The notes beneath the pieces are model-generated. The model was given only the letters and a program-made list of their open reading frames with translations, did no database searches and had not been told where the DNA came from. Of a DNA stretch of 64,000 bases, positions 631 to 18,183 are shown piece after piece; the stretch's first letter is position 1, and each line of letters opens with the position of its first letter. Source of the stretch: Beijerinckiaceae bacterium (GTDB lineage Bacteria > Pseudomonadota > Alphaproteobacteria > Rhizobiales > Beijerinckiaceae); assembly GCA_027533425.1 (NCBI GenBank), contig JAPZUD010000005.1, positions 186,001 to 250,000 on the forward strand, written 5' to 3'. Made by a program: the position numbers and the translations under genes.

Positions 631-1569
631 ATGACCCGCTATCTCGCAACCCGCTTCGTGAGAGCCCTTCTCACGCTCCTTCTTTGCGTGAGCGCCGCCT
701 TTGTTGTTCTGCGCCTGTCCGGGGACCCGACGGATATCCTGCTCCCCGAGGATGCATCGGCCGATACCCGCGCGGAATACCGCGCCCGCTGGGGGCTCGA
801 CCGGACAATTCCCGAACAGTATTTTCGCTATCTCGCCAGTGTGCTGCGAGGAGATTTGGGGCTCTCCTTCGCCGATGGTCGGCCGGCCATCACGGTCATC
901 CTCGAGGCCATCCCGAATACACTCATTCTCGGAAGCTCCGCGATTGTCCTGGCGCTGGCGGTGGGTATTCCACTGGGCGTTCTGGCGGCCCAGCACCGCA
1001 ACACGACCCTTGATCGCACAATCATGTCGTTTGCCGTCCTCGGCTTTTCGCTGCCGACTTTCTTTCTTGCCATCTTGCTCATCCTTCTTTTCGCACTGAC
1101 GCTGAGGTGGCTGCCCTCGTCCGGGACGGAAACCTGGCTTCACCTTCTTCTGCCAACAATCACCCTGGCGTCAGGTCTCCTCGGCAAGACCGCACGGTTT
1201 ACCCGAACATCGCTGCTCGAGGTGCTGAGCCAACCCTATATCCGGACGGCACGCGGGAAGGGCGTGCCTCGCCTCGGCGTCCTTCTGGGCCATGTGTTGC
1301 CGAATGCCGCTGTTCCACTCCTGATGTTTCTCGGGATCGAAATCGGCCTGGTTCTGGCTGGCGCCGTCGTCACGGAAACGATTTTCGCCTGGCCGGGTAT
1401 CGGGCGCCTGCTGGTCTCTGCTGCGGCGTCCCGTGATCTTCCGGTGGTCCAGGCAGCCATTCTTTTCGTTGCCGCGATCATCGTCCTGTCGAACCTGGCT
1501 GTCGATCTTGTCCACGCGATGGTTGACCCTCGGATCGATGCCTTCGGCACGAGGCATTCGCGCTCATGA
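631..1569 (+). CDS. ABC transporter permease, DppB/GsiC type (plus-strand module)
   Basis: This 312-residue inner-membrane protein matches the DppB/OppB family of family-5 importers. It has an N-terminal membrane segment followed by the typical LRLSGDPT motif, several further membrane helices, and the EAA-type cytoplasmic loop near residues 195-215 (RTARGKGVPRLGVLLGHVLP). It would form half of the membrane channel for a solute delivered by the binding protein at 2506. It overlaps the next permease by 4 bp, so the two are translationally coupled. Its sequence is strikingly like the permease at 7300-8247 (shared FVVLRLSGDP-type start and WGLD region), so the two modules are paralogous. The substrate cannot be read from the permease; a phosphoester is inferred from the context. 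Confidence 0.9.
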   Translation: MTRYLATRFVRALLTLLLCVSAAFVVLRLSGDPTDILLPEDASADTRAEYRARWGLDRTIPEQYFRYLASVLRGDLGLSFADGRPAITVILEAIPNTLILGSSAIVLALAVGIPLGVLAAQHRNTTLDRTIMSFAVLGFSLPTFFLAILLILLFALTLRWLPSSGTETWLHLLLPTITLASGLLGKTARFTRTSLLEVLSQPYIRTARGKGVPRLGVLLGHVLPNAAVPLLMFLGIEIGLVLAGAVVTETIFAWPGIGRLLVSAAASRDLPVVQAAILFVAAIIVLSNLAVDLVHAMVDPRIDAFGTRHSRS

Positions 1570-2432
1570 GCGTCCAGGCGGAGACATTTTCCCCGGCCCG
1601 GCGGTCGATGCCCCTATCCATCCGTCTCGCGTTGGTCTTTCTGGCCGGCATGGCCCTGATCGCCCTGATCGCGCCATTGATCGCCCCATACGATTTTGCC
1701 CAGCAGAACCTTCTCCGGCGGTTGCGACCTCCGGTCTTCTGGGGAGGCGATTGGGCCTATCCGCTTGGAACGGACAATCTTGGGCGGGATATTCTGAGCC
1801 GGCTCATTTATGGCATCCGGACATCCATCGCCGTCGCGATGGCAGGCACACTCATCGGGGCTGTCTTCGGTTCGCTGCTGGGTTATCTGGCAACCCGCCG
1901 GCGTGGTCTCGTCGAAGAAATCATCATGATGATGGTGGATGTGCAAGCGGCCCTGCCGGCCTTCTTCATCGCCATTGCCTGCATCGCGCTGATGGGATCG
2001 AACCTTCTGATCTTCATCGTCCTTGTAAGCCTGGAAGGCTGGGAACGGTATACCCGCCTCGTTCGGGGGCTCGTGCTCTCCCAGCAGGCATCGGGATACA
2101 TCCTGGCCGTGAAGGCCCTTGGAGCCAACGCGGCACGGGTCGATATCCTGCATGTCCTTCCGAACATCGCGGCATCCCTTGTTGTCCAGATGAGCATCAC
2201 CTTTCCGTGGGTCATCCTTCTCGAGACCTCGCTCTCCTTCCTCGGGCTCGGTATCCAACCGCCCGGCACATCGCTGGGGCAGATGCTTGGATCGGGTCGG
2301 AACTACCTTCTCCAGGCGTGGTGGATTGCCGTCCTGCCCGGCATGACGATCTTCCTCACCACGATGGCGATGAGCCTCGTTGGCGACTGGCTCAGGGACC
2401 AGCTGGATCCGACATTGGAAGAGCCTTCGTAA
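1566..2432 (+). CDS. ABC transporter permease, DppC/GsiD type (plus-strand module)
   Basis: The 288-residue protein is a DppC/OppC-type permease: an N-terminal membrane helix, the family motif LGTDNLGRDILSRLIYG near residues 62-78, and the EAA loop with an ALGAN...HVLPN pattern. It pairs with the permease encoded just upstream, whose stop overlaps this start as ATGA. It ends 73 bp before the binding-protein start. It is clearly related to the DppC protein at 6431-7303. No ATPase is encoded in this module, so it must borrow one, and the DppD/DppF pair of the facing operon is the obvious candidate (inference). Confidence 0.9.
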   Translation: MSVQAETFSPARRSMPLSIRLALVFLAGMALIALIAPLIAPYDFAQQNLLRRLRPPVFWGGDWAYPLGTDNLGRDILSRLIYGIRTSIAVAMAGTLIGAVFGSLLGYLATRRRGLVEEIIMMMVDVQAALPAFFIAIACIALMGSNLLIFIVLVSLEGWERYTRLVRGLVLSQQASGYILAVKALGANAARVDILHVLPNIAASLVVQMSITFPWVILLETSLSFLGLGIQPPGTSLGQMLGSGRNYLLQAWWIAVLPGMTIFLTTMAMSLVGDWLRDQLDPTLEEPS

Positions 2433-2505
2433 CGGCGCGCCGTTGTCACTCGCATGTTGCAACTCCTCCGTACGAACCGGGCAGCGCCAACTGGAGAATT
2501 GCCTC

Positions 2506-4065
2506 ATGTCTGTGACCCGCCGCCGGTTTTCACAAGGCCTTGTCGCCGCCCCCTTCGTTGTCACGACGCCCCATGCCTTTGCACAGACAGACCGTCGACC
2601 GACCTTGACGGTGGCCGTTGCGCAGCTGCCGAAGGTTCTCGAACCGGCACTCGAGTTGAACAATGTCGGGACGCGGGTCACCTATTCGGTGTTCGACACG
2701 GTCATCCGTCGTGACTTCAAGGGCTCGCCGGATGGCGGCGGGTCGGCCCTGCTGCCCCATCTGGCGACATCCTGGAAGCGCGAAGGCAGCCAATCCCTGC
2801 TGGTCAGTTTCCGTGACGACGTGATGTTTCACGATGGCGCGAAAATGACCGCCGAGGATGTTGCCTACACGTTCCGCAATGGCCGGCTCTGGGGCGAAAA
2901 GGCAGAGATCCCGGGGGGCCGCGCGTTCTTCGGAACGCTGTCGGAGGTTGAGGCCGTTGACCGGAACACCGTGCGCTTCAAGACCCGCATTCCCGATGTG
3001 CTCCTCGAGCAAAGACTGGCCTCCTGGTGCTCCTGGATCGTCAGCAAGCGCCATTACGAGCAGGTCGGCATCGAGGGCTTCGGGAGGAACCCGATCGGAA
3101 CGGGCCCCTTCCGGTTCTCGCGGGCCCGGGCCAACGAATTCATGGAATTCGAGGCGCATGACGCCTACTGGATGGGCCGCCCGAACGCGCGCCGCGTGAC
3201 ATTCCGCGAGGTACCGGAACTCTCGACCCGGATTGCCGGGCTGGTCTCCGGCGAGTTCGATCTGATCACCAACGTCCCGCCCGACCAGCTCACCGTGCTG
3301 CAGGGGTACAAGGATGTCGATGCCCGGTCGGTCGTTCTGGCGAACAGCCACCTCCTGACCTTCGACGCCCGCTCCCCGCAGACCAACGACAAGCGCATCC
3401 GGCAAGCCCTCGGCCTTGCCATCGATCGCAAGAAGCTTGTCGACTCGCTCTGGCTCGGCAAGGCTGCCATCCCGGCTTCACACAATTACCCCGAATTTGG
3501 CGACATGTTCTTGCCGGGACGCGCCTTGTCCTTTGACCCGGCAAAAGCGAAAGCGCTTCTGAAGGACGCCGGGTACAAGGGCGAACCGATCACCTATCGC
3601 ACGATGCCAAACTACTACACGGCCGCTCTTGATGCCGCCCAGATCATCGTGGAGATGTGGAAAGCCGTCGGCATCAACGCGCAGCTTCAGGTTGTTGAAA
3701 GCTTTGCGCAGATGCAGAGTGCGGGCCAGCAGGTCGGCAACACCTCGAATTCGACCCGCTTCCCCGATCCTCTCGGAGCGCTGTGGATTTCGTGGGGCCC
3801 GAATTCGGAGTTCCAGCGGTCGAAGGCCTTTGACCCTGGTGATGCTGCTGCCTTCAACACGCTTGGGAAGGCCCTCGAATCCGAGACCGATCCCGCCAAG
3901 CGGAAAGCCTTGTTCGCGAGCATGCTGGACGCCTGGGAAGATGCGTGTCCGGCCACGATTCTCTACCAGCCCTTCGAGAGCTATGGCGTGAAGAAGAAGA
4001 TCAGCTGGAAGCCGTACAGCTTCTTCTTCATGGACCTGCGGCCCGACAATCTTTCCTTTGCCTGA
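2506..4065 (+). CDS. Family-5 solute-binding protein (plus-strand module)
   Basis: This is a 519-residue periplasmic binding protein of the SBP_bac_5 (DppA/OppA) family. The start at 2506 is preferred over in-frame upstream codons because GGAG lies about 10 bp before it and because it begins a Tat-like signal (SVTRRRFSQG) with a hydrophobic core ending near AFAQ. The family signatures FHDGAKMTAEDVAYTF and FDARS...ALGLAIDRKKLVDSLW are present. It is a paralogue of the binding protein at 10245-11879: both share the NYYT and IVEMWKAVG region near residues 365-390. Family members usually bind peptides, nickel or sugars; here the neighbouring phosphoesterase and the Pho box suggest a phosphorylated organic compound, which the sequence alone cannot prove. 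Confidence 0.88.
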   Translation: MSVTRRRFSQGLVAAPFVVTTPHAFAQTDRRPTLTVAVAQLPKVLEPALELNNVGTRVTYSVFDTVIRRDFKGSPDGGGSALLPHLATSWKREGSQSLLVSFRDDVMFHDGAKMTAEDVAYTFRNGRLWGEKAEIPGGRAFFGTLSEVEAVDRNTVRFKTRIPDVLLEQRLASWCSWIVSKRHYEQVGIEGFGRNPIGTGPFRFSRARANEFMEFEAHDAYWMGRPNARRVTFREVPELSTRIAGLVSGEFDLITNVPPDQLTVLQGYKDVDARSVVLANSHLLTFDARSPQTNDKRIRQALGLAIDRKKLVDSLWLGKAAIPASHNYPEFGDMFLPGRALSFDPAKAKALLKDAGYKGEPITYRTMPNYYTAALDAAQIIVEMWKAVGINAQLQVVESFAQMQSAGQQVGNTSNSTRFPDPLGALWISWGPNSEFQRSKAFDPGDAAAFNTLGKALESETDPAKRKALFASMLDAWEDACPATILYQPFESYGVKKKISWKPYSFFFMDLRPDNLSFA

Positions 4066-4078
4066 TACGGGACAGTCC

Positions 4079-4945
4079 ATGACGCGTTCGATCACGATCG
4101 TGCAGGTTTCGGACACGCATCTGTCCGAAACCCACGCCTACTTCATTGATAACTATCGCGTATTCGAAGAGGAAATGGCGAGGCTGAAGCCTGATCTCAT
4201 TGTCCATACCGGGGATATTTCCTTCAATGGGCCTGCCCGCCCGGATGACCTGGTGTTTGCGGCGTCCCAGCTCCGGCGGCTGCACGCCCCGCTCCGCGTC
4301 CTCGCGGGGAACCATGATGTCGGTGAGGCCCCGGGCCATTCGCGCCTCGACCAGCCCCTGAATGACGCGCGCATCAAGGCGTGGCGCGATCATGTTGGTC
4401 CGCTTTGGTGGCATGAGGATATCGGTGCCTGGCGCCTGATCGGCCTCGATACAGCGCTGATGGGTTCCGGCAGACCAGAAGAAGACGAACAAAACGCTTT
4501 CCTCATGGGAGCACTGGCCTCGCGGGGGACTCGCCCGGCCATGGTATTCATGCATATGCCGCCTTTCTACCGCGATGCGGAAGACCCGGTCTTCACGACA
4601 TCCGCCGTTCCGTTCGACGTGCGCGGTGAATTGCTGTCTCGTTGCCGGGACGGAGGCGTGAAGGTCATGACCTGTGGCCACCTGCATGTCTATCGCACAC
4701 TCCGATACCAGGGGATGCAAATCGTCTGGGCACCGACGACGGCCATGGTCAATCTGAAACACCAGTGGATGCAATGGCGCCGGTGGACGCGGCCGGGCTA
4801 CCTTGTCTGGCATCTTGAGGGCAGCAGGATCCGTCACGAACTGGTTGAGCCGAGGCTCATGATCGGGCTGGATACGACGCGCTGGACCGAGATTGGCGGC
4901 ACAACAACGAACATGCCGCCACGTCCCCTGGTCCGGAATGCCTAG
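4079..4945 (+). CDS. Calcineurin-type metallophosphoesterase (CpdA/GpdQ-like), cytoplasmic
   Basis: The 288-residue protein shows the full dimetal phosphoesterase motif series: SDTH near the N-terminus, HTGDIS, AGNHD, a central MHMPP and GHLH near residue 200. This pattern is typical of the CpdA/GpdQ branch, which cleaves cyclic nucleotides or glycerophosphodiesters. The frame could start at 4058, but ATG 4079 places the catalytic core right at the N-terminus as in relatives. No signal peptide is visible, so it should act in the cytoplasm. It follows the binding-protein gene by 13 bp and is its operon partner, which implies that the ABC importer brings in an intact phosphoester that this enzyme then opens. 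Its gene converges with the phosphodiesterase at 4964-6427. Confidence 0.85.
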   Translation: MTRSITIVQVSDTHLSETHAYFIDNYRVFEEEMARLKPDLIVHTGDISFNGPARPDDLVFAASQLRRLHAPLRVLAGNHDVGEAPGHSRLDQPLNDARIKAWRDHVGPLWWHEDIGAWRLIGLDTALMGSGRPEEDEQNAFLMGALASRGTRPAMVFMHMPPFYRDAEDPVFTTSAVPFDVRGELLSRCRDGGVKVMTCGHLHVYRTLRYQGMQIVWAPTTAMVNLKHQWMQWRRWTRPGYLVWHLEGSRIRHELVEPRLMIGLDTTRWTEIGGTTTNMPPRPLVRNA

Positions 4946-4963
4946 CCATCACCGATGGCGGAG

Positions 4964-6427
4964 TCAGCCCTGACGCTCGCCATGCACAAGAAAGGTCGCC
5001 CCGCCCCGACGTGCGATGGCGAGGCTTTGCACAAAGCCGCCGGATGAAGCCGTGAACAAGTGCCGTTCGACAGTATGGTCGGCAGCACTCCGCAGCGTGT
5101 GACCCTGCATGCTGAGGGGCTGCGGAAGGCCGAGCAGATCGAGGATGGTTGGTCCGATATCGATGATCCCGGCGGGAACATCCGTCATCGCGCCGCCATT
5201 CGCTGCCGAACCGCCGAGAACAAGCATGGTATTCAACTCGTGCCGGTTGAGGCCACCATGCATGCCGCCGCCGACCGGCACGCTGCCTGTAATCAATCCG
5301 AGCCCGGGAAAGCCATGGGTGTCCCTGCTGGTGTCGGAGCGCAGGACATAGACAAGCTCCGGCGAGCGAGGATGGTGAAGCTCGACCAACCGCGTCGAAA
5401 AGGTTCCCGGGACACTGCCCAGAATGGGATCGTCGGATGGCGTGAAGACCATCCCGGTGAATTCCTGCGCCATCAGCCAGCGGGCCACGGCGTCTCGGCG
5501 ATCAAGATCCCCATCGAGAACGCGGATCTCGCCCATGTTGCCCCCGGTCACCGCGAGGGCTGCTCCATCAAGGGTCCGCGCGGATGCTTTCGCTGCCGGG
5601 TGACCGGCTCGGGTGAGGAGTTCGGCAATGTCAACCTGGCCTGAACTCGAGATCTGCCCGTGATCCGAGGCGATGATCAGGGCAATGTCCTGTGCGTCCG
5701 AGCGGGCGGCAATGGTGTCAAGAATACGCTGGAAGGCTGCATCGACATGGGCGAGTACAGCCAGCGTCTCTTCAGAACCCAGAAACTTGTAGTGGAAGGA
5801 CGTGTCAGGCTCATTGAACCAGATCAGCGCGACATCGGGGTTGATGTCCGGCAGAACATGCTCCGTCAGGACACGGGTTGCATAATCGATTTCCTCGAAC
5901 CGTGGCAGATTGCGCGGCGGCAAGGGGCCAAAGCGGGCCACCATTTCCCGGACGGCATGCGGCGTCTTCGTATGGGCTTCGCCCAATACCGAAAACGTCC
6001 AGTGGTTGTTGGTCGCAGCACCCGGATTGATGGCGTAGGTCGATCCCGGCGAACCGGAATGCACGACCGCGAGGTTCCTGCCGTGCGCAGCGAGGACATC
6101 CCCGAAGGTTGTTGCCGTGATGAACCGCCCGTTGAGGGCGGCTTCAGCGAGCGCGATATCGCTGGCAAGCGAGACGTCCAGCACGAAATCGCGGCTTACC
6201 TCCGGATAGTAGAAGGCGTTGCCGACAATGCCATGGATGACCGGCATCGCTCCCGTAGCCATGGAACTGGTTGCGACGCGTGTCATGGAAGGGAACACAG
6301 ACCGGGCTTCGCGGAACCAGGAATTTGCCACGGAATAGGCGTGCAGATTAGGCATGAGGGTCGGTGTGACCATATCGGGCCGCAATCCGTCAAACACGAC
6401 AACGACGATCTTCGATGTTTCTCGCAT
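4964..6427 (-). CDS. Type I phosphodiesterase / nucleotide pyrophosphatase family enzyme, cytoplasmic
   Basis: This 487-residue protein belongs to the alkaline-phosphatase superfamily, NPP branch. Visible features are an N-terminal metal-binding VVFDGLRPDMV, the Thr-nucleophile region FPSMTRVATSSMATG near residues 45-60, the second metal site IIASDHGQ near 258, and the late metal His in MHGGLNRHE near 390. Members hydrolyse phosphodiesters, pyrophosphates or phosphonate esters; phosphonoacetate hydrolase is a distant relative. The protein starts directly with the catalytic core and has no signal peptide. It is the last gene of the minus-strand ABC operon, 3 bp after the DppC permease, so it probably processes whatever that importer delivers. 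The exact substrate is unknown. Confidence 0.85.
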   Translation of the reverse strand: MRETSKIVVVVFDGLRPDMVTPTLMPNLHAYSVANSWFREARSVFPSMTRVATSSMATGAMPVIHGIVGNAFYYPEVSRDFVLDVSLASDIALAEAALNGRFITATTFGDVLAAHGRNLAVVHSGSPGSTYAINPGAATNNHWTFSVLGEAHTKTPHAVREMVARFGPLPPRNLPRFEEIDYATRVLTEHVLPDINPDVALIWFNEPDTSFHYKFLGSEETLAVLAHVDAAFQRILDTIAARSDAQDIALIIASDHGQISSSGQVDIAELLTRAGHPAAKASARTLDGAALAVTGGNMGEIRVLDGDLDRRDAVARWLMAQEFTGMVFTPSDDPILGSVPGTFSTRLVELHHPRSPELVYVLRSDTSRDTHGFPGLGLITGSVPVGGGMHGGLNRHELNTMLVLGGSAANGGAMTDVPAGIIDIGPTILDLLGLPQPLSMQGHTLRSAADHTVERHLFTASSGGFVQSLAIARRGGATFLVHGERQG

Positions 6428-6430
6428 GGT

Positions 6431-7303
6431 CTACCTCAAGGTGGGATCGAGCCGGTCGCGCAGCCAGTCGCCCAGAACCGAAACGGCAAGGGTTGTCAGG
6501 ATGATGGTCACCGCTGGAGCAAGCATGATCCAGGGAGCACGGGTGATGTATTCGCGGCCAAAACCCACCATGTTGCCAAGGCTGGTCATCGGGGGTTGTA
6601 CCCCAAGGCCAAGGAATGACAGCGAGCTTTCCAGCAGGATGACCTCCGGGAAAACCAGTGTCATCATCACGATCAGCGTCGAAGCGATGTTTGGAAGAAT
6701 GTGCCGGAGATAGACCCGGACGGGCCGTGCACCTAACTGATGGATTGCCGATGCGTATCCTTGCGCGCTGGCCGAAATGGCCAGGCCGCGCGCAATGCGC
6801 GCATAGCGTTCCCAGCCGAACAGTCCCATCAACCCGATCAGAAGCGGCAGGGAATTGCCGAAAAAGGCAAGAACCGACAATGCGAGGATCAGAAACGGCA
6901 TGCTGGCTTGAAAATCGGCCAGCATCAGGACGATCTGTTCAGCAAAACCACGATAATAGGCCGCCACGAACCCGAGGACGGTGCCCAGAAAGGCAGAAAT
7001 CAGGGCCGCGCCGAAGGCGATCAAAAGGGAAATCCGGATCGACACAAAGAGCCGCGAGAGCACATCACGGCCCAGTTCATCGGTGCCCAGCCAATGCAAC
7101 GGATTGCCCGGCGGTGAAAGGCGATTGCGCAAGTCAGGCGCGGTGAAGCGATAAGGCGAAAGGACATCGGCAAGCAGGGCAATGACAATCATCCCGATCA
7201 GCCAAGCCAGGGCAAGATAAACGGCAATCGGAACCGATCGCGATCGTGCGTGGTCCAAGGATCTGGGCGCCGGCTTTGACGATGCCAGGGCATGATCGGT
7301 CAT
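6431..7303 (-). CDS. ABC transporter permease, DppC type (minus-strand module)
   Basis: The 290-residue membrane protein has the DppC/OppC N-terminal helix, the signature LGTDELGRDVLSRLFVS near residues 72-88, and the EAA loop near 180-200. It overlaps the DppB gene by 4 bp and is followed 3 bp later by the phosphodiesterase gene. Its closest relative in the window is the permease at 1566-2432, which supports duplication of a whole transporter. It would form the second half of the membrane channel with the protein encoded at 7300-8247. Confidence 0.9.
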   Translation of the reverse strand: MTDHALASSKPAPRSLDHARSRSVPIAVYLALAWLIGMIVIALLADVLSPYRFTAPDLRNRLSPPGNPLHWLGTDELGRDVLSRLFVSIRISLLIAFGAALISAFLGTVLGFVAAYYRGFAEQIVLMLADFQASMPFLILALSVLAFFGNSLPLLIGLMGLFGWERYARIARGLAISASAQGYASAIHQLGARPVRVYLRHILPNIASTLIVMMTLVFPEVILLESSLSFLGLGVQPPMTSLGNMVGFGREYITRAPWIMLAPAVTIILTTLAVSVLGDWLRDRLDPTLR

Positions 7304-8247
7304 GGCTGCCCTCCCGCTGCCTTGTGACCCTTCGCACTGCGCAGTCGCGGGTCCAGAAAGCCGTAGAGGAAGTCAACGATCAGGTTTGAGATCACCATGG
7401 TTGCCGCAACCAGGAGCAGGATGCATTGCACGACCGCCAGGTCGCGGTTGGCCACGGCCACAACAAGCAGACGCCCGACACCGGGCCACGAGAACACGCT
7501 TTCGACAACCACTGCCCCCGCGATCAGGGTGCCAACCATGAAGCCAATGATCGTCACCGTCGGAATTGCCGCATTCGGCAAGGCGTGACGGGTGATCACA
7601 TCCCGCCAGGGTACACCCTTGGCGCTGGCGGCCCGGATGAAGGGCTGGCCGAGCACCTCAAGCATGGCCGATCGTGTGAAGCGGGCGAGGATCGCGGCGC
7701 CGCCGATCCCCAGCGTCAGGATCGGAAGAATGGCATGACGCCAGCTGTCCTGCCCACCCGAGGGGAGCCAGCCGAGCTGAACCGCGAAGACCAGCACCAG
7801 TGTCAGGCCAAGAACGAAGCTTGGGATCGTGAATCCGGCAACCGAAGCGATCATCACGATGCGGTCTGTGAGGCTGCCACGATGGAGGGCGGCATAGACC
7901 CCGGCCGGGATGCCAATGCCGAGCTTGAGGACCAAAGCAGGAACCGTCAGCGCCAGGGTGATCGGGATGCGTTCGGCGACAATCTCGATCGCCGACCGGC
8001 CATCGCGCATGGAGCGGCCCAGTTCCCCCTGCGCAATCGCCCCGAAATAGTGAAGGTACTGGAGCCATATCGGATCATCGAGCCCCCAGGCCCGACGAAA
8101 GGCGGCAAGCACTTCAGGTGGTGCTTCCGGCCCGAGGATGTTCTGGGCTGGATCTCCGGAAAGCCGTAGCACGATGAAGGCAAATGTCACGACGAGGGCG
8201 ATCGTGATCAGCGCCCGGCCAACGCGGAGAATGATGAAGCGCCCCAT
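7300..8247 (-). CDS. ABC transporter permease, DppB type (minus-strand module)
   Basis: This 315-residue permease of the DppB/OppB family has an N-terminal helix leading into LRLSGDPAQNILG, further membrane segments, and an EAA loop with RAASAKGVPW near residue 205. Its stop codon region overlaps the start of the DppC gene (4 bp), and its start touches the end of the DppF ATPase gene. The strong similarity to the permease at 631-1569 along the whole length (both with WGLD and RDGRSAI/ADGRPAI patterns) shows that the two modules share ancestry. Confidence 0.9.
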   Translation of the reverse strand: MGRFIILRVGRALITIALVVTFAFIVLRLSGDPAQNILGPEAPPEVLAAFRRAWGLDDPIWLQYLHYFGAIAQGELGRSMRDGRSAIEIVAERIPITLALTVPALVLKLGIGIPAGVYAALHRGSLTDRIVMIASVAGFTIPSFVLGLTLVLVFAVQLGWLPSGGQDSWRHAILPILTLGIGGAAILARFTRSAMLEVLGQPFIRAASAKGVPWRDVITRHALPNAAIPTVTIIGFMVGTLIAGAVVVESVFSWPGVGRLLVVAVANRDLAVVQCILLLVAATMVISNLIVDFLYGFLDPRLRSAKGHKAAGGQP

Positions 8248-9254
8248 CAGGCGGCCTGCGTCTGGTCAGAGGCTGCGGCAGGGTAGAGATGGCAGGCAAC
8301 GCGGCGCTGCCTCCCCACAGGAACGAGCGCCGGGGCCTCCTCCTTGCACCGGGCCATCGCGGCTCCGCATCGGGGATGAAACGCGCAGCCTGTCGGCCGG
8401 TTCGCCGGGTTGGGCGGCTCCCCGGTCAGGACGATGCGCTCATGGCGGTTGGTCGACCGGGCTTGCGGCGCGGCAGAGACAAGGGCCTTTGTATAGGGAT
8501 GGAGCGGCGATGCGAACAGATCATCCGCATCTCCCTCCTCGACGAAGCCTCCGAGATACATCACCGCCACACGTTTCGAAATCTGTCGAACCACCCGAAG
8601 ATCATGGCTGATGAACATCATCGCGAGACCCAGTTCGGTCTGCAGGTCTATCAGCAGATTGACCACCTGCGCCTGGATCGACACGTCGAGCGCCGAAACC
8701 GGCTCGTCACATACGAGGAAATCGGGGCCAGTCATCAGGGCCCGCGCAAGAACGACGCGCTGGCGCTGGCCGCCGGACAATTCATGCGGGTAGCGCGCGC
8801 CCTGTTCGCGGGAAAGCCCGACCCGCGCCAGCATCTCGGCCGCCTTGACCTGATTGCCGTGATGCTCCCGTGGCTGGTGGATATCCAGCGGTTCGCGGAT
8901 CTGCGTGAGCACCGGAAGGCGCCGGTCCAGCGCACCGAGCGGATCCTGGTAGATCATCTGCATCCGCCGCCGCAGCCCCCGCCACTCGACTGTGGACGGC
9001 ATCGGCATCGGGCTCCCGCGAAAGACAACCGATCCGAGGTCGGGGGCTTCGAGCCCGAGGGCAAGACGCCCCAATGTCGACTTGCCCGAACCGGACTCGC
9101 CGACGATGCCCAGGGTTTCTCCCGGCAGGATGTCGAAGCTGACATCATCAACCGCGCGAACAGGGCTCGAAGCTCCGAATATCCCACGACGAGATGTGTA
9201 AATCCGGCGGAGATTGCGGACGGACAGCAGCATGCCGGTCTTGGCCGACATCAT
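8247..9254 (-). CDS. ABC transporter ATP-binding protein, DppF/OppF type
   Basis: The 335-residue ATPase has Walker [10 protein letters not shown] near residue 50, signature LSGGQRQRV, Walker B and a D-loop (DEPVSALD), and the family-specific C-terminal extension with a Cys-bearing GCAFHPRCG motif typical of oligopeptide-type ATPases. ATG 9254 is chosen over the longer frame (9332) because it overlaps the stop of the upstream ATPase gene as ATGA and places the domain correctly. It should pair with the DppD-type ATPase to power the minus-strand importer, and may also serve the plus-strand module, which has no ATPase (inference). Confidence 0.9.
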   Translation of the reverse strand: MMSAKTGMLLSVRNLRRIYTSRRGIFGASSPVRAVDDVSFDILPGETLGIVGESGSGKSTLGRLALGLEAPDLGSVVFRGSPMPMPSTVEWRGLRRRMQMIYQDPLGALDRRLPVLTQIREPLDIHQPREHHGNQVKAAEMLARVGLSREQGARYPHELSGGQRQRVVLARALMTGPDFLVCDEPVSALDVSIQAQVVNLLIDLQTELGLAMMFISHDLRVVRQISKRVAVMYLGGFVEEGDADDLFASPLHPYTKALVSAAPQARSTNRHERIVLTGEPPNPANRPTGCAFHPRCGAAMARCKEEAPALVPVGRQRRVACHLYPAAASDQTQAA

Positions 9255-10252
9255 GCCGCGACTCCTTCGGAACGGGTCCGCTCCTGACCGACAGCGTCTT
9301 CCAAAAAGCAGGCCACCCGGTGTCCTGGCCATGTCACGGCGAGGGAGGGAACAGCTGAATCACAGGCTGGCATCCGTTTCGCACAGCGCGGGGCAAAGGC
9401 GCACCCGGCCGGAAGAAGTCTCGGATCGGGCACGACACCCGGAATGGACACGAGGCGACGGCGAGGCCCGGACAGGGGCGGCAGCGATCCCAGCAATCCC
9501 TGCGCATAAGGGTGGCGGGGGTCATCGAACAGGGCCCCGGTCGTTCCCTCCTCGACAATCCGTCCCGCATACATCACAGCAACGCGATCACATGTTTCGG
9601 CGATCACGCCGAGGTCATGGCTGATCAGGACCAGCGCCATGCCCAGCTCGCGGCGGATGGTCCGGATCAGGTCAAGGATCTGCGCCTGGATCGTCACATC
9701 CAAGGCGGTCGTCGGTTCATCTGCAACGAGCAGATCAGGCTGCCCGGCCAACGCCATGGCAATCATGACGCGCTGGTTCTGTCCGCCGGAAAACTCATGC
9801 GGATAGGCGTGGACACGACGGGCGGCATCGGGAATCCCAACGAGATCAAGAAGTCGGAGAGTCTCTGCCCGGCCAGCGGTCCCAGAAAGACCGCGATGCA
9901 GGGCAAGAGCCTCGCCGATCTGCTTGCCGATCGAGATCACCGGATTGAGCGCGCTTGCCGGATCCTGGCTGATCATGGCGATCCGCCCTCCCCGGACACG
10001 ATCGAGCGTGGAGGGCGAGGCTCCGACCAGTTCCACGCCCTCGAGCGATGCGGAGCCGCCAATTCGCGCCTTTCCAGGCAATAATCCGAGCGCCGCCAAC
10101 CATGTGACGGACTTCCCCGAACCGGACTCGCCAACCAGACCAAGGGCTTCGCCGCGTGAAACGGTCAGGTTGATGCCATGCAATACCCGCACGCCGTCGA
10201 AGCTGACGGTCAGGTCGTCGAGCGCGACAAAATGGCTCTCCCGATCAGACAT
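9251..10252 (-). CDS. ABC transporter ATP-binding protein, DppD/OppD type
   Basis: The 333-residue ATPase shows Walker [10 protein letters not shown] near residue 40, the Q-loop [11 protein letters not shown], the signature FSGGQNQRV, Walker B with DEPTTALD, and the OppD-type C-terminal GCAFAPRCA segment. Its start overlaps the end of the binding-protein gene (8 bp) and its end overlaps the DppF start, so the whole operon is translationally coupled. It is one of the two energy-coupling subunits of the minus-strand family-5 importer. Confidence 0.9.
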
Positions 10253-11879
10253 AGTTGCCAGGCCGGAAGTCCATCGCGAAGGCTGGCGAAGCCTGCCATT
10301 TCAGGGATTTTGGTTTGGCCGTGAACGTCGCATTCTGGTGCAGCACGGTATAGGCAGGGTCCTCGCGCTCGCAGATTTCCAGCATTCGACGAAACGCGAG
10401 CCGCCGCTTCGCCCGGTCGGTCGAGGTTTCAAGCACTTCACAGAGCTGGTTCATCTCGGGATTGGTCCATTCGCCGATCTGTTGCTGCTGGCCATTGGGA
10501 CCATGCTGGTTAACGATCGAGGAGACGGGATCAGAGAACGGCGCCGAATTCGACCAGTCCCGCACAGCGCGCTGGCTGCCCCTCTCCATGATCTGGGTCC
10601 AGTTTTCCTTCGAGTTGATCTCAACGTTCAGGCCAACGGCGCGCCACATCTCAACGAGGATCTGCGCAGTCGCGTTCTGATTTGTGTAGTAATTGTTGAG
10701 CAGGCGATACGGGATCGGGTCGCCCTTGTACCCAGCCTGCTTCAACAGATCCTGGGCCAGTTTCGGGTTATATTCCGGGACGCGCCAATCCGCGTGAAAC
10801 ATATCGCCGTAGTATTCCCACTGAAGGCCGGCCGGTACCTTGGTGCGCCCGGCCCAGAGGCTGTCGACGATAGCCTGGCGATCAATCGCATGAGTGAAGG
10901 CGCGGCGCACAAGCGGGTTCCGGAGTTGCGCATGGTTCTTGTCAAACGTGATCAGACGATGATTGAGGATCGTGCCGCCCTGCACTTCAAATGCGGCATT
11001 CCTCTCGATCTGGCTGATCTGGTCCGGCGGAATATCGCAGGCAAACTGGTATTGGCCGGAAAGGAGACCGGCGATCCGGCTCGGAACTTCCGGCACTTCG
11101 ATGAAGCGAATGCGCTTGATGGGAGGGCGTCCACCCCAATACTCGTCATGGGCTTCCAGAACGAGCATGTTGTCTGGGCGAAACTCCACAACCTTATAGG
11201 GGCCGGTCGTGATCGGCTTGCGGGCCCAGTCGAGGTAGGAAGCGGCGTCTTCCCACCCTTTTCGGCTCATGATGTCCGAGCCATAGCGCGCAAGGCGTCC
11301 CTCAAGGGTTACATCCGGTGTCGCATTGTAAAAGCGGACAGTGTACTTGTCGACGGCCTCAACCCGAAGCAGATCGGGCCAGGCCCGGCGCGCCACCGCA
11401 ATGATCTCGGGGGGCAGCTCCTTGCCAGGGCGGGGCGTCGGGATTTGCTCGAAAGCCTTGAGAGTCGTCCGGTTCTTGGCCTCGCTGTTGCCGAACATCC
11501 GTTCGCGCGAGAACGTGAAAACGACATCTTCCGCCGTCATTTCCGCGCCGTTATGAAACTTCACCCCCTGGCGCAGCTTCAGCTCAACCGTCTGGTCGTC
11601 GATGCGCTTCCACTCTGTCGCAAGACCCGGACGAGGGGACAGATTCCCAAGCCATTCCTTGGAGATCAGCGGCTCCCAGAGTGACGTGAAGAATACGCGC
11701 TCTCCCACGTTGGATTGTTCGCGCAACACATCAAGCGTGTTGGAGTTCACAACCTTTTGCACCGCGATCGTGATCGTTGGCCGGTTATCCGCCTGGCCAA
11801 TCGCAAATCGCGGAATGGCAGCAATGCCCAGCAGCGACGCCCCTGTGCCAAGAGCAGCACGTCGTGACAGATTGACCAC
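10245..11879 (-). CDS. Family-5 solute-binding protein (minus-strand module)
   Basis: This 544-residue SBP_bac_5 protein is the first gene of its operon. The start is read as GTG at 11879, because AAGGAG lies 6 bp before it and it opens a Tat-type signal (NLSRRAALG) with a hydrophobic core ending near FAIGQA. The longer frame to 12014 has no such support. Family motifs include KFHNGAEMTAEDVVFTF and the AIDRQAIVDSLW region. It aligns well with the binding protein at 2506-4065, including NNYYT and ILVEMWRAVG. A candidate Pho box lies about 110-125 bp upstream. A phosphorylated ligand is inferred from the phosphodiesterase at the end of the operon. Confidence 0.88.
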   Translation of the reverse strand: MVNLSRRAALGTGASLLGIAAIPRFAIGQADNRPTITIAVQKVVNSNTLDVLREQSNVGERVFFTSLWEPLISKEWLGNLSPRPGLATEWKRIDDQTVELKLRQGVKFHNGAEMTAEDVVFTFSRERMFGNSEAKNRTTLKAFEQIPTPRPGKELPPEIIAVARRAWPDLLRVEAVDKYTVRFYNATPDVTLEGRLARYGSDIMSRKGWEDAASYLDWARKPITTGPYKVVEFRPDNMLVLEAHDEYWGGRPPIKRIRFIEVPEVPSRIAGLLSGQYQFACDIPPDQISQIERNAAFEVQGGTILNHRLITFDKNHAQLRNPLVRRAFTHAIDRQAIVDSLWAGRTKVPAGLQWEYYGDMFHADWRVPEYNPKLAQDLLKQAGYKGDPIPYRLLNNYYTNQNATAQILVEMWRAVGLNVEINSKENWTQIMERGSQRAVRDWSNSAPFSDPVSSIVNQHGPNGQQQQIGEWTNPEMNQLCEVLETSTDRAKRRLAFRRMLEICEREDPAYTVLHQNATFTAKPKSLKWQASPAFAMDFRPGNYV

Positions 11880-12361
11880 AATGATCTCCTTTTCGGTACA
11901 AAAGCGACGATCCTGGAACATCCTGCGGCCTTTGCCTGCAGGGAGGATCAACCTTGCCCTCATGGTGAGTGTGAGTACGCTGTCCTGCTGACAGCCCTGT
12001 GACGCAGCCGGCAAAATTGACGATGTTTTTGCCCGAGACTCTCATCGATGATGGCAAGGATTCTTGTGTTGTCTGCCGCGACCTCTCCAGTAGGCACCTC
12101 TGCGGACAGAAAATCGTACCCCGATCACTTCGGCGCCTACGATCTGAAAAACTGGATTGCCCCTGATCTTGCCGTCGTATTGATCAGCCGCATCCGGACC
12201 TCCGGCTTTCCGGCAGGCCGTACAGAAATGCTGTCGTTGCGGTGACCGGGCCTTCACGGACTCGACTCCGCGCGTCGAGCTTGCTGTGATCGCGGATCGA
12301 ATCCGGGACCAGCAACCCAACGCCGCGAACGAACCGATGTTGAAACGGCTTCGCCCGCTCC
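11880..12361. other. Divergent intergenic region between the ABC operon and the hydroxylase gene
   Basis: This 482-bp stretch separates two divergent genes. It holds the Shine-Dalgarno AAGGAG of the binding-protein gene (around 11886-11891) and a Pho-box-like repeat at 11988-12005. Two overlapping open frames (12048-12245 plus, 12042-12425 minus) match no family I know and have no clear ribosome-binding sites, so I do not call them genes. The rest probably contains both promoters. Confidence 0.5.
11988..12005 (-). promoter_or_regulatory. Candidate Pho box upstream of the minus-strand ABC/phosphodiesterase operon
   Basis: Read on the minus strand the sequence is GCGTCAC-AGGG-CTGTCAG, with GTCA cores exactly 11 bp apart, as in PhoB-binding direct repeats; the second half matches CTGTCAT at 6 of 7 positions. 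It is about 110-125 bp before the GTG start of the binding protein. Together with the similar site at 539-556 it suggests that both facing modules respond to phosphate starvation. Confidence 0.55.
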
Positions 12362-13198
12362 ATGCCTCAGAGCAAAACCATGAGTGAACTCCTCCTTGCC
12401 CACGAACCCGCCATACGGCTGGCATTCTTTCTCACCATCCTGCTGGGGATGGCGATCTGGGAATTGGTGGCACCGCGTCGGCGCCTGGAGATTCCGCGAC
12501 TGTTCCGCTGGTCAAACAATCTCGGCATTGTCGTGATCGACACGCTCCTGGTCCGGATGGCATTTCCGGTCGCTGCGGTTGGCCTGGCCGTGCTTTGGGA
12601 TGAACGGGGCTGGGGGCTGCTCAACCTTCTTCCGCTTCCCGGATGGCTGGCCATCCCCCTGGCGATCCTGATCCTCGACTTCGCCATCTACCTTCAGCAT
12701 GTCCTGTTCCATGCTGTTCCAGCCCTTTGGCGGCTTCACAGGATGCATCATGCCGACCTCGACTTCGATGTCACGACAGGATTGCGCTTCCATCCGATCG
12801 AGATCCTGTTTTCCATGGCCATCAAGCTCGGCATCGTTGCGCTTCTTGGCCCGCCCGCGATCGCCGTGCTGATTTTCGAAATCCTGCTGAATGCGACCTC
12901 GATGTTCAATCACTCGAATATCCGGCTGCCGCTGGCAGCAGACCGCATCTTGCGCAGGATTATTGTCACGCCCGACATGCACAGGATCCATCACTCGGTA
13001 ATCCCAGCCGAAACCAACAGCAATTTCGGCTTCAGCCTGTCCTGGTGGGACCGGCTGCTGGGGACCTACAGGGCGGATCCGGCCAATGGTCATGCGCAAA
13101 TGGCGATTGGCCTGGACCAGTTCCGGTCCCGCAAGGACCTGCGCCTCGATCAGATGCTGCTGCAACCGTTCCGGAAGAAAACAGTCCCGGAGCCATAA
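12362..13198 (+). CDS. Fatty acid hydroxylase / sterol desaturase superfamily membrane protein
   Basis: This 278-residue protein has three or four membrane segments and the di-iron histidine clusters of the superfamily: HVLFH near residue 118, HRMHH near 128, and HRIHH near 207, with the intervening TGLRFHP and NHSN patterns. Such enzymes oxidise lipids or carotenoids using oxygen. Start 12362 is the first ATG; ATG 12380 is equally possible because neither has a clear Shine-Dalgarno sequence. It lies alone between the phosphoester importer and the phosphite operon. One member of the superfamily (OlsE) hydroxylates ornithine lipids, which replace phospholipids during phosphate shortage, so a role in lipid remodelling is conceivable but unproven. 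Confidence 0.8.
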   Translation: MPQSKTMSELLLAHEPAIRLAFFLTILLGMAIWELVAPRRRLEIPRLFRWSNNLGIVVIDTLLVRMAFPVAAVGLAVLWDERGWGLLNLLPLPGWLAIPLAILILDFAIYLQHVLFHAVPALWRLHRMHHADLDFDVTTGLRFHPIEILFSMAIKLGIVALLGPPAIAVLIFEILLNATSMFNHSNIRLPLAADRILRRIIVTPDMHRIHHSVIPAETNSNFGFSLSWWDRLLGTYRADPANGHAQMAIGLDQFRSRKDLRLDQMLLQPFRKKTVPEP

Positions 13199-13458: not shown

Positions 13459-14325
13459 TTAATCCAATGAGTGGGAAAATGCCGACAGGCATGCCGCAGC
13501 TGGCGCCGTCTTCGGCAGACGCTCATGCGTGACAAGCCAGATATCCTTGTATATTTTGGCGTGATTAATTCGTATTTCCACAAGACTACCTTGCTCTATT
13601 TCGTCAACTACAGACGATTTCATGACGATTGAAACACCACGACCGGCACGAACCGCCATTTTTACCGCCTCCGTGCTTCCAAGATTTTCGGAGACCCGCA
13701 ACTGATCCGCGATTGATCCAATCGCCTGCCGAAGCACGCGAGCCGTACCGCTTCCGCGCTCCCCTGCGAGAAGCGGCTCGGCCAACAGCTCCTGCACATC
13801 AATAGCCTCGCGCCCTGCCCATCGATGGGACGGCGATGTGATCACAACGAGATCCTCGCGACGCCAGGCGACGGCGTCGTAGCCGGGTCGATTATCCCAC
13901 CATTCCAAGGCCGCCAGATCTGCCTCGCCCCGCTCAAGCCGGTCAACGGCTTCATGATTGGGTCCGATCCAGGTCTCGACGCCGATCCCTGTTGCGCTTT
14001 CGAAGGCCGAGATCGGCCCCTGCAACATGTAGATGCCGATATTGCTCGCCGAGGCAATCTTCAGCCCGTCGGAGGAGACCGCGGCACAGGCGCGCCTTGC
14101 GGTTGCCAGAAGCGCGCGGCCGAGTGGCAAGAGCTTTTCACCTTGCCGTGTGGGGTGGGTTCTTGCGGATCTGCGTATGAGGAGCGGCGCCGCAACAGCC
14201 TCTTCCAGTTGGCGAACATGTTCGAGGATCGTCGAGGGGGAGACCCCAAGTTCCCGGCCTGCGGACCGGTAGCTGCCAAGGTCGCAGACGACGACGAAGG
14301 AGCGGACATGAATGAGGTTCAGCAT
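13459..14325 (-). CDS. ptxE: LysR-family regulator, PtxE-like
   Basis: The 288-residue protein has an N-terminal LysR helix-turn-helix (residues 1-60; GSYRSAGRELGVSPSTI) followed by a substrate-binding effector domain. Its start overlaps the end of the phosphite dehydrogenase gene by 7 bp, so it is the last gene of the ptx operon. In the described ptxABCDE cluster of Pseudomonas stutzeri, the fifth gene is also a LysR regulator, and the identical order is the main reason for the name. It probably senses an operon-related ligand and binds dyads such as those at 17835-17880 (inference). Confidence 0.8.
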   Translation of the reverse strand: MLNLIHVRSFVVVCDLGSYRSAGRELGVSPSTILEHVRQLEEAVAAPLLIRRSARTHPTRQGEKLLPLGRALLATARRACAAVSSDGLKIASASNIGIYMLQGPISAFESATGIGVETWIGPNHEAVDRLERGEADLAALEWWDNRPGYDAVAWRREDLVVITSPSHRWAGREAIDVQELLAEPLLAGERGSGTARVLRQAIGSIADQLRVSENLGSTEAVKMAVRAGRGVSIVMKSSVVDEIEQGSLVEIRINHAKIYKDIWLVTHERLPKTAPAAACLSAFSHSLD

Positions 14326-15326
14326 GTCTTGGCCGGTCGTTCGAGCGGTGTGACCAGCCCATCGGGGATTTCTCCAGCCAGAGCCTGGACAATGCTTCGT
14401 GCCGCGGCAGCCTCGATCATCCGTCGCGCTGATACCGTCGCCGATCCGATATGGGGGGTCAGGACGGTCCGTGCGCCCGGTCGGCTCAGGCGTTGGTCAA
14501 TCCGCAAGGGCCGATCGTCGCGTGCCCAATCTTCGAACGCAAAAACATCGGCAGCGTAACCGCCGAGATGTCCAGCTTCCAGCGCATCGGCAACTGCGCT
14601 TTCATCGACAAGCGATCCGCGCGCGGGATTGATCAGGAATGCGCCCGGTTTCATTCGCGCCAGATCCTTGGCGCCGATCATCCCGACTGTTGCGTCAGCA
14701 AGCGGAAGAGCGAGGAAAATGAAATCCGATAGTTCGAGCAAGCGCTCTGGCGTGACAAACTCGACCCTCGTGGTCACGGTGGCAACCGGGCTCACGTCAC
14801 TGGCAAGGATGCGACACCCAAACCCCGCAAGCTGCCGGGCGATAACCTGTCCGACCTTCCCGAAGCCGAGAATGCCAACGGTGGAGCCGTAAAACCCGGT
14901 GCCATAAAGGCGCGGGCGCCAGCCAGAAAAGGCGCCGCCACGGACCAGCGCATCGCCTTCCAGGACCCGGCGGCCCAGAGCAATCGCGAGGCCGATCGCG
15001 AGTTCGGCGGTCGGTTCGGTCAGGAGATCGGGAACGATCGTCACCATCACGCCGCGCTGCGCCGCAGCTTCCACGTCGATATTGTCGTATCCCTTGAGCG
15101 CCGCTCCAACGATGCGCAAATCCGGGCATGCATCCAGGAAATCCGCATCAATCCGTTCCGTCATGAATGCCATGAGACCCGCAGCTTCTCTTGCTTCTTC
15201 CAGAAGCCGGCTGCGCGGCCACGGTTCGATGCCATCATTGGCAACAACCTTGGCGCGGCCTTCGAACATCGCGCGCGTCTCGGGAAACGTCCGGTTCGTC
15301 AGAACAACCAGCGGCAAATCAGCCAT
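14319..15326 (-). CDS. ptxD: NAD-dependent phosphite dehydrogenase
   Basis: The 335-residue protein belongs to the D-2-hydroxyacid dehydrogenase family and follows known PtxD (336 residues) closely, for example DADFLDACPDLRIVG, ALKGYDN and VPDLLTEPTAELAIGLA. PtxD oxidises phosphite to phosphate with NAD. The residues known to be essential are conserved: Lys78 in ALKG, Arg236 in NPARGS, Glu265 in FEDWAR and His292 in TPHIGS. The nucleotide-binding GFGKVG lies at 154-159, and an acidic residue (Asp177) after the second strand points to NAD rather than NADP. I use ATG 15326 because it aligns with the PtxD N-terminus; GTG 15347 is an alternative. The gene sits between the ptxC-like permease and the LysR regulator. 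Confidence 0.9.
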   Translation of the reverse strand: MADLPLVVLTNRTFPETRAMFEGRAKVVANDGIEPWPRSRLLEEAREAAGLMAFMTERIDADFLDACPDLRIVGAALKGYDNIDVEAAAQRGVMVTIVPDLLTEPTAELAIGLAIALGRRVLEGDALVRGGAFSGWRPRLYGTGFYGSTVGILGFGKVGQVIARQLAGFGCRILASDVSPVATVTTRVEFVTPERLLELSDFIFLALPLADATVGMIGAKDLARMKPGAFLINPARGSLVDESAVADALEAGHLGGYAADVFAFEDWARDDRPLRIDQRLSRPGARTVLTPHIGSATVSARRMIEAAAARSIVQALAGEIPDGLVTPLERPAKTC

Positions 15327-15354
15327 CACGGCGGGTCCAAGGTCCACATGCCTA

Positions 15355-16158
15355 TCACTTCAGCGACTTGCGGAGGAATGCGCCGATTGAGTCCACGACA
15401 AGGACGCAGGCAAGGATCGAGAGCAGGATTGCGGAAACCTGATCGTAGTTGAGCAGGCGCAAGGCCGCCATCAGCTCGAAGCCGATCCCGCCAGCCCCGA
15501 CAATGCCCAGGACCGCCGAAGCCCGGAAATGATATTCCCACCGATAGATCGTCACGTCGGTCAATTGCGGCAGGACCTGCGGCAGCACAGCATGCGTGAT
15601 CACCTGGAACGGGCTGGCACCGGCTGCGCGCGCCGCTTCAAGCGGCTTCGGGTCGACATGCTCGATGGCTTCCGCATAGAATTTCCCGACCATTCCAACC
15701 GAATGCAACGCCAACGCCAGGACGCCAGGCAGCGCACCGAAGCCGACCGCAGCCACAAACAGGACACCGAGAATGATCTCCGGTACCGAACGCAAGAAGG
15801 CGAGCAGGGTCCGTGTGATGAAATAGACGGTGGCGTGCGGGCTCGTATTCGGCGCGGCAAGCAATGCCAGCGGCAGCGAGAGCATGACGGCGAGCACCGT
15901 ACCCGCGATCGACATGGCGAGCGTATCAAGCAATGGCCGCAGCCAGGATTGCCAGCGGCCGAAATCCGGCGGCACCATTTCAGAAGCAAGCTGCCGGATC
16001 GCCGGCCCCGCCTCGGCAAAGCGCTGGGCGTCGAAGAACCCGGTCGTCGCCAGCGCGGCGATCGAGGCGAGCAGGATCGCCCCGACAAGGACAGAGCTGC
16101 GCCGCGCCGCCTTGCGCTCGGAAACAAGAACCGTTTCGTAAAAAGCGGCGCGGTTCAT
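15355..16158 (-). CDS. ptxC: Phosphite/phosphonate ABC transporter permease, PtxC/PhnE type
   Basis: This 267-residue inner-membrane protein matches the PhnE/PtxC permease family: an N-terminal helix after a charged segment (SERKAARRSS), several further helices, and a cytoplasmic loop with EAARAAGASPFQVI near residue 180. Start 16158 is chosen since GGGTTG lies just before it and it is 4 bp downstream of the ptxB stop; the longer frame would overlap ptxB. It should form a homodimeric channel for phosphite, energised by the ATPase at 17057-17818. Confidence 0.85.
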   Translation of the reverse strand: MNRAAFYETVLVSERKAARRSSVLVGAILLASIAALATTGFFDAQRFAEAGPAIRQLASEMVPPDFGRWQSWLRPLLDTLAMSIAGTVLAVMLSLPLALLAAPNTSPHATVYFITRTLLAFLRSVPEIILGVLFVAAVGFGALPGVLALALHSVGMVGKFYAEAIEHVDPKPLEAARAAGASPFQVITHAVLPQVLPQLTDVTIYRWEYHFRASAVLGIVGAGGIGFELMAALRLLNYDQVSAILLSILACVLVVDSIGAFLRKSLK

Positions 16159-16162
16159 GGTA

Positions 16163-17032: not shown

Positions 17033-17056
17033 GGAAAGCTCCTCTGACAGTGGGAT

Positions 17057-17818: not shown

Positions 17819-18183
17819 CCAGAACCCCACACCCGTTCGAAAACTTCGAACAAATATCCATAATGTTCGGTATCGGATACGATCTGACTGCAACGTTCGT
17901 GTGACAGCCGTTGCCTGGCGAGCCGGAAAGGCCGGACAAGCGGGACGGGCGGCTTCGATCCTCGGACAGGGACGACCATTGCCTTGCGAAGCGCCTCATG
18001 CGCGCCTGTGCCCGGCCCATCAGCGGCAACCGGGCTCCGGTACGGCTCGCTTTGTCGCCCATCTCCTTGCTTACCGGGCCACGCCCGAAAACTCAGCCTT
18101 CAGCATGCAACCGCGAAAAATCGACCTGCGTGCAAGAGGCCGCTTTCATGGCCTTGCGAACCGGAACGACCCTGCGCGCGTGA
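17819..18183. other. Upstream region of the ptx operon
   Basis: This 365-bp region separates the ptx operon from the hydrolase gene (which reads toward it). It contains the two dyads at 17835-17880 and a CTGTCAC half-site (minus strand, 17901-17907). No convincing gene is present; small frames in it (for example 17901-18227 plus) have no family resemblance. Confidence 0.5.
17835..17880 (-). promoter_or_regulatory. Two inverted repeats upstream of ptxA (possible regulator sites)
   Basis: GTTCGAA-AAC-TTCGAAC is a perfect 7-bp inverted repeat at 17835-17851, 17 bp before the ptxA start. A second, GTATC-G-GATAC at 17870-17880, is a perfect 5-bp arm dyad that can extend with one mismatch (TCGGTATC/GATACGA). 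The interval around them is A/T-richer than the surroundings. Dyads near the promoter fit binding by the PtxE-like LysR protein encoded in the same operon, but which protein binds is unknown. Confidence 0.5.

Follow-up and report, generated by a model that had tools for sequence, protein, structure and literature searches.

A 64,000-nucleotide stretch of the genome of a Beijerinckiaceae bacterium (GenBank assembly GCA_027533425.1, contig JAPZUD010000005.1, positions 186,001 to 250,000), here called the window, contains two convergent gene modules that encode family-5 ATP-binding cassette (ABC) importer components and two phosphoesterases. Genes were assigned from the list of open reading frames (ORFs) and from Pfam and NCBIfam profile searches, and coordinates refer to the window. 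The plus module (631–4945, + strand) consists of the genes for inner-membrane permeases B (631–1569; BPD_transp_1) and C (1566–2432; BPD_transp_1 and OppC_N), a substrate-binding protein, SBP+ (2506–4065; SBP_bac_5), and a calcineurin-like metallophosphoesterase, MPE (4082–4945; Metallophos), for which an alternative TTG start is possible at 4058. The minus module (4964–11879, - strand) begins with a second binding protein, SBP- (10245–11879; SBP_bac_5; GTG start), and continues with ABC ATPases of the OppD type (9251–10252) and OppF type (8247–9332), both with ABC_tran and oligo_HPY matches, permeases B (7300–8247) and C (6431–7303), both BPD_transp_1, and an NPP-like type I phosphodiesterase, PDE (4964–6427; PF01663). 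The start codon of the OppF-type gene is uncertain, as the listed ORF overlaps the preceding gene. Both binding proteins have a twin-arginine-like leader, judged by eye, and the modules are separated by a gap of 18 bp.

An earlier note on this DNA, made from the sequence alone, had described two facing paralogous importers here, and the ORFs, the profile matches and the identities between the modules agree with that layout. The B permeases share 49% identity (E 6e-102), the C permeases 51% (E 2e-95) and the binding proteins 37% (E 6e-109), and all six proteins match the opposite module better than any of 14 other family-5 loci in the same genome. The LRLSGDP and NYYT/EMW-AVG motifs that the note had pointed out also occur in both modules. 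The transporter parts common to the two modules are true paralogues. A recent duplication of the modules was considered and rejected, because the receptors sit in two deep clades of a quick tree that had long control branches. The same ten genes, at 90–99% identity, were found in Rhabdaerophilum sp. SD176 (locus L126; loci from other regions and genomes are cited by such numbers where needed), the closest named genome found.

When the binding proteins were compared with the sequences of solved structures, AccA (chain 4ra1) was matched at E 1.5e-115 by SBP+ and at E 1.4e-83 by SBP-, while the best chain other than AccA gave 2.1e-32 and 7.9e-34, respectively. The lead of AccA over the best other family-5 chain is thus about 83 orders of magnitude in E-value for SBP+ and about 50 for SBP-. 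The top seven structure sequences were identical for the two proteins; six are named as agrocinopine or AccA entries and the other, 8cke, has a generic name. AccA is described in PMC4526662 as a receptor of cluster C, of the family-5 type. By these sequence matches, both binding proteins are members of the AccA family. It is almost certainly wrong to see the modules as peptide or nickel importers of the ordinary kind whose neighbouring esterases are there by chance. The best NCBIfam models for the importer are indeed of the Opp/Nik or dipeptide type, but all fall below their own cut-offs, the AccA match is far stronger than that to other family-5 chains, and the adjacency described below is strongly conserved.

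AccA uses Asn54, Glu510, Asn284 and Ser419 to hold the pyranose OH1, and grips the phosphate with Asn54, Ser419, Tyr375 and Tyr376 (PMC4526662). Five of these residues (Asn54, Asn284, Tyr375, Tyr376 and Ser419), here called the clamp, are retained in both SBP+ and SBP-, and the shared NYYT motif includes Tyr375-Tyr376, the two phosphate-binding tyrosines. Glu504 of PMC4526662 corresponds to a Trp in the numbering used here and was not used as a criterion. All five clamp residues were found in 96 of 110 AccA-like proteins and at least four in 107, whereas none of 16 control proteins, family-5 members from the window's own genome, had even four. The set of 110 leaves out loci L071, L089 and L126 and matches below 250 bits or 1000 bases. 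Several of its members represent one locus counted twice, and the count was therefore repeated on the 83 proteins that remained after removal of near-copies, with all five residues in 69 and at least four in 80. The 16 control proteins, from 14 loci, are all the non-AccA family-5 proteins found in the window's own genome.

The phosphoesterases that end the modules show no similarity to each other, in keeping with the earlier note, and its statement that neither has a visible signal peptide also stands, since both begin, by eye, at the first core strand. The predicted structure of PDE (predicted local distance difference test, pLDDT, 94.7) is closest in fold to NPP3, NPP1 and the Xanthomonas (Xac) NPP. 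Phosphonoacetate hydrolase has a similar fold but ranks 49th, below the NPPs, and the identification of PDE as the phosphonoacetate hydrolase PhnA was rejected, model TIGR02335 giving 28.3 bits against a cut-off of 407.55. The catalytic residues are complete: D13, T49, D208, H212, D255, H256 and H390 are invariant in 12 PDE sequences, and across 36 sequences six of the seven positions are invariant and H212 is nearly so. We take these positions to be a two-metal catalytic set with a threonine nucleophile. On predicted fold and catalytic set, PDE is assigned as an NPP-type phosphodiesterase (PF01663, alkaline phosphatase superfamily). In MPE, the metal motifs DxH, GD, GNHD, H and GHxH are invariant in six sequences. 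Its only matches among solved structures at E≤0.001 were 2dxl and 2zo9 (both named 'Phosphohydrolase', E 3e-7), which are presumably GpdQ. The predicted structure of MPE was poor (pLDDT 63.7). Assignment as a cAMP phosphodiesterase or SpdA was rejected, as both models were under their cut-offs.

The earlier note had proposed that adjacency of such receptors and phosphoesterases be sought in other genomes. A PDE alignment was scanned across a collection of 84,980 species, each represented by a single genome, and 80 loci were kept of 202 confirmed, 28 of them shorter than 20 kb, so that missing neighbours are partly explained by contig ends. Neighbouring genes were searched at E 1e-8 with a panel, which detects only the families included in it, and PDE identity was taken from the better of two queries, the PDE of the window and its relative from S. 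meliloti. An AccA-like receptor was present in 52 of the 80 loci. Where PDE identity was at least 42% (64 loci), 49 loci had an AccA-like receptor, five only a permease or ATPase part, four a Ugp-type importer and six none of these; the corresponding numbers for the 16 loci with PDE below 42% were three, none, two and 11. By comparison, PDE, MPE, glycerophosphodiester phosphodiesterase (GDPD) and PehA were each absent, by the panel search, from all 14 control loci with other family-5 receptors of the window's own genome, and an IMPase match lay about 10 kb away in one of them.

Adjacency was also viewed from the receptor side in 20 regions, 18 taken from among the SBP matches, not all of which were used, and the other two from MPE matches; L094 and L095, which belong to the 18, were already known to carry MPE. 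MPE, GDPD or PehA lay within 7.5 kb in nine of 13 AccA-like loci scoring at least 390 bits, a set that includes two loci already known to have MPE. Across 199 genomes of the bacterial family to which the window belongs, distribution was patchy, with MPE found in 25 and PDE in 18 (both at E 1e-30) and an AccA-like receptor in 21 (E 1e-60). The pairing of receptor and phosphoesterase is strongly conserved, and the proposal of the earlier note came through the check that it had suggested, with a receptor at 49 of the 64 closer PDE loci and an esterase at none of the 14 controls.

A quick tree was built from 79 of the 110 AccA-like proteins, with near-copies removed, together with AccA and six of the 16 controls. 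The two window receptors fall in two deep clades with supports of 91 and 99. In the SBP+ clade (16 rows, support 100), the partner enzyme is MPE in the window, Bosea vaviloviae, G084 and Pseudoroseomonas, and an AccF-like GDPD instead in Bosea, Chelatococcus and others; both are present in Allorhizobium pseudoryzae. The partner in the SBP- clade (27 rows, support 100) is PDE, PehA, GDPD or a mixture of these. The partner label changes 27 times over nine groups on the tree, compared with a mean of 49 when shuffled. The partner enzymes (NPP-like PDE, MPE, GDPD and PehA) are clustered on the tree yet not fixed, and are exchangeable. At least two AccA-like receptors were found in 12 of the 80 PDE loci, and in nine of these (L135–L139, L175, L179, L200 and L201) the receptors are attached to one transporter core. 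A relative of the xylose-isomerase-like TIM-barrel family (PF01261; type protein checked) is present in 15 of the 80 PDE loci, 13 of which have an AccA-like SBP, and this suggests that the substrate includes a sugar. In a Halomonas plasmid (L012, 9001–10432), an AccA-like receptor annotated in pieces adjoins GDPD and PDE-family genes.

The Acc system of Ti plasmids (AccA-AccBCDE-AccF) offers a precedent. Agrocinopine, a sugar phosphodiester, is imported whole and cut in the cytoplasm by AccF (PMC4526662). As interpreted here, the window shares with it an AccA-family receptor, gripping phosphate along with the adjacent sugar hydroxyl, and the import of an intact phosphodiester with a cytoplasmic phosphodiesterase encoded beside the transporter. 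The earlier note had inferred import of intact phosphoesters and cleavage inside the cell, and this is probably right and is the best reading, given the AccA-family receptors, the retained clamp and the conserved adjacent esterases. It had also proposed a new substrate class, and that part falls, because phosphodiester import by this type of receptor had already been published. The window differs from the Acc system in having the NPP-like PDE and the GpdQ-like MPE in place of AccF, a GDPD, and IMPase, which occur together in Acc-like plasmid operons. Further differences are that a single ATPase pair accompanies two receptors and two permease pairs and that other pocket residues diverge, and an AccR-like gene was not found in the window by the panel search. 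The principle of an AccA-type receptor coupled to cytoplasmic cleavage is known; what is new here is the use of different, exchangeable phosphoesterases, and a form with two receptors, two permease pairs and one ATPase pair.

The explanation that we favour, with moderate confidence, is that the locus encodes one modular organophosphoester import-and-cleave system of the AccA type. Two periplasmic receptors of the AccA family would each grip the phosphate of a compound, together with a neighbouring hydroxyl; from the receptor sequences, the substrates are likely to be of the phosphodiester type. The receptors would then hand the compound to two related permease pairs, both powered by the single ATPase pair. 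The intact compound would reach the cytoplasm and be cleaved there by the NPP-like PDE and the GpdQ-like MPE, yielding phosphate or a phosphomonoester and an alcohol, which would probably be glycerol or a sugar. Receptors and enzymes would be modules that can be swapped on a shared transporter core, and the system would probably serve phosphorus supply.

Several observations, given here and in the following paragraphs, weigh against this explanation. On the receptor side, no panel esterase was found in four of the 13 AccA-like loci scoring at least 390 bits, nor within 5 kb in any of five more distant AccA-like loci, one of which has a GDPD at 6.3 kb. PDE lies beside a Ugp-type importer, with no AccA-like receptor, in six of the 80 loci. 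In addition, four pocket residues of C58 AccA, the gate Trp423, Thr430, Glu434 and Glu510, are absent from both window receptors. Since these four are not retained, agrocinopine itself is less likely as the ligand, and the ligand of the window receptors may differ from it. The same four residues are also absent from the annotated accA of pAtK84b, which makes them a weak criterion and would allow a genuine opine system of the agrocinopine type that supplies mainly carbon, as would the family membership of the receptors and the replacement of MPE by an AccF-like GDPD in many relatives. We nevertheless regard an opine system as improbable. GDPD, IMPase and an AccR-like (DeoR) gene were not found in the window by the panel search, and PDE relatives occur with such receptors across many genera outside Agrobacterium.

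Whether the modules form one system or two turns on the ATPases. None belonging to the plus module were detected by the panel search, either in its part of the window or in 14 kb of sequence preceding the window (L089). Of 19 named loci with a plus module, 16 lack SBP- and have ATPases beside the facing PDE, on the opposite strand; for 14 of them, no other family-5 permease was found on the ATPase strand. The two modules share one orientation and have only one ATPase pair between them in Bosea (L130 and L142) and in G084 (L072). One shared ATPase pair is the simplest reading of these arrangements, and the modules are probably parts of one system rather than the two importers described in the earlier note. 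Two importers acting independently on different phosphoesters, each served by a separate esterase, with the plus-module permeases drawing on ATPases from another locus, would be consistent with the two deep receptor clades and with the esterase that ends each module. L094 and L095, where an SBP+-type receptor occurs with MPE and with no permeases nearby, point the same way. Moreover, in one of the 16 loci (L157) a distant family-5 permease pair (35–37%) directly precedes the ATPases, and the nine survey loci include four with this arrangement (L079, which is from the genome of L157, and L081, L082 and L083). Because of that permease pair, the ATPases in those relatives may serve another importer. 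We consider two independent importers unlikely, as the plus module lacks ATPases here, faces a PDE–ATPase unit without SBP- in most of the named loci, and runs in one direction with the minus module in the Bosea loci.

The genes beyond SBP- are those of a phosphite-type cluster (13459–17893, - strand; 2.4–6 kb from SBP-) that includes PhnC, PhnD and PhnE, a PtxD relative (phosphite dehydrogenase, E 3.6e-95) and a LysR regulator. Rhabdaerophilum sp. SD176 has relatives of PhnD, PhnE, PtxD and LysR in the corresponding position, with L126 starting within PhnD. Between the importer and this cluster lies a gene of the fatty-acid-hydroxylase family (12362–13198; PF04116), which possibly serves a change in membrane lipids under phosphorus shortage; its match to the ornithine lipid hydroxylase OlsE was far under the cut-off. 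With the fatty-acid hydroxylase, LysR, PhnC, PhnD, PhnE and phosphite-dehydrogenase-like genes beyond SBP-, the neighbourhood fits a role in phosphorus supply.

The cluster is also compatible with the scavenging of phosphonate esters, in which the receptors would import phosphonate mono- or diesters, the esterases would free the phosphonate and enzymes encoded elsewhere would break the C-P bond. In L093 (8420–14860), an AccA-like receptor and transporter genes directly follow phnH, phnK, phnL and a phosphonate-type hexapeptide transferase gene, and in L105 an AccA-like importer follows C-P lyase-type genes in a similar order; no panel esterase was found in either locus. C-P lyase-type genes also occur near the PDE loci L186, L200 and L201 and at the plasmid locus L018, and PehA, annotated as a phosphoric/sulfuric ester hydrolase, stands beside close relatives of SBP-. 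When the PDE loci as a whole were counted, phosphonate genes were near eight of 80, compared with one of 14 own-genome controls, a small set, under the same rule. They are thus not enriched, which also counts against the role in phosphorus supply proposed above. This and the failure of PDE to reach the phosphonoacetate hydrolase cut-off make phosphonate-ester scavenging a doubtful alternative. Two loci with a more distant PDE and a Ugp-type importer (L019 and L086) have divergent genes of the PEP-mutase family and for a pyridoxal-phosphate (PLP) aminotransferase, perhaps a phosphonate pathway.

Pho boxes had been claimed in the earlier note, and sites resembling what we take to be the Pho-box consensus do precede both modules, though as weak matches. 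One (539–556, + strand) has three mismatches and lies 74 bp before the plus module; two of 200 shuffles of the 300-bp stretch contained a site as good. The other (11988–12005, - strand) has four mismatches and lies 108 bp before the minus module, with 32 of 200 shuffles as good. Seven such sites were found in the window against 3.3 expected, and seven of 100 shuffles reached seven, so that the number is not clearly above chance. In four relatives (L072, L127, L130 and L142) the best site is 106–117 bp before the SBP- match, a distance counted to the protein match and not to a known start codon, and the G084 site matches at 12 of 14 positions; in L129, L165, L179, L135 and L137 the best match is located elsewhere. 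The Pho-box support for our explanation is weak, and the sites are no more than suggestive of Pho control of the modules.

Three other systems share features with the window. The importer on pRL9 of Rhizobium johnstonii 3841 (L014) has a receptor 71–72% identical to SBP- and the same five-gene transporter core, but its partner is PehA, of the sulfatase type, and no PDE, MPE or plus module was found in 25.6 kb. Relatives of MPE and PDE adjoin genes for Ugp-like, sugar-type importers (UgpBAEC), which presumably have a Ugp function but belong to another ABC family, not family 5. The xanthosan system AvrBs2-XanT-XanP also takes up a sugar phosphodiester whole and cuts it with a dedicated phosphodiesterase. 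It differs in its putative TonB-dependent outer-membrane uptake and its 2H phosphoesterase, and the accessible text of the paper does not mention an AccA-type ABC importer (PMC12807533).

A broader proposal, on which we are evenly divided, is that the AccA family is a general alphaproteobacterial family for organophosphoester uptake, assembled from interchangeable components: a single receptor or several, one permease pair or two, an ATPase pair, and either a replaceable phosphoesterase (NPP-like, GpdQ-like, GDPD or PehA) or neighbouring C-P lyase genes. The opine system of Agrobacterium would be one specialised branch of this phosphorus-scavenging family, and the window an example with both receptors and both permease pairs on one ATPase pair. 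We found no description of AccA in this role in the open-licence literature, which does not show that none is in print, and no usable published link there between AccA and C-P lyase, PehA or Bosea. If the proposal is true, AccA would shift from a Ti-plasmid curiosity to a widespread nutrient route, with hints at the origin of the opine receptor. A concrete substrate class would be assigned to genes whose present annotation goes no further than ABC transporter component or 'alkaline phosphatase family protein'. Uptake of AccA-type compounds, agrocin 84 among them, may also become easier to predict for soil bacteria.

Two minor observations concern the setting of the locus and one of its relatives. 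One of the loci (L155) is labelled as Mycobacterium sp. KBS0706 and has a gene set like that of the alphaproteobacterial loci; the genome is possibly mislabelled or mixed. In the window, the G+C content is 0.59–0.65 up to about 20 kb and mostly 0.65–0.68 beyond, with one stretch of 0.62. The shift coincides with genes for tRNA-Gln (19954–20028) and tRNA-Pro (20232–20308), as at a genomic island, and the G+C content of 0.59–0.65 continues upstream of the window, where there is also a weak match to a transposase domain.

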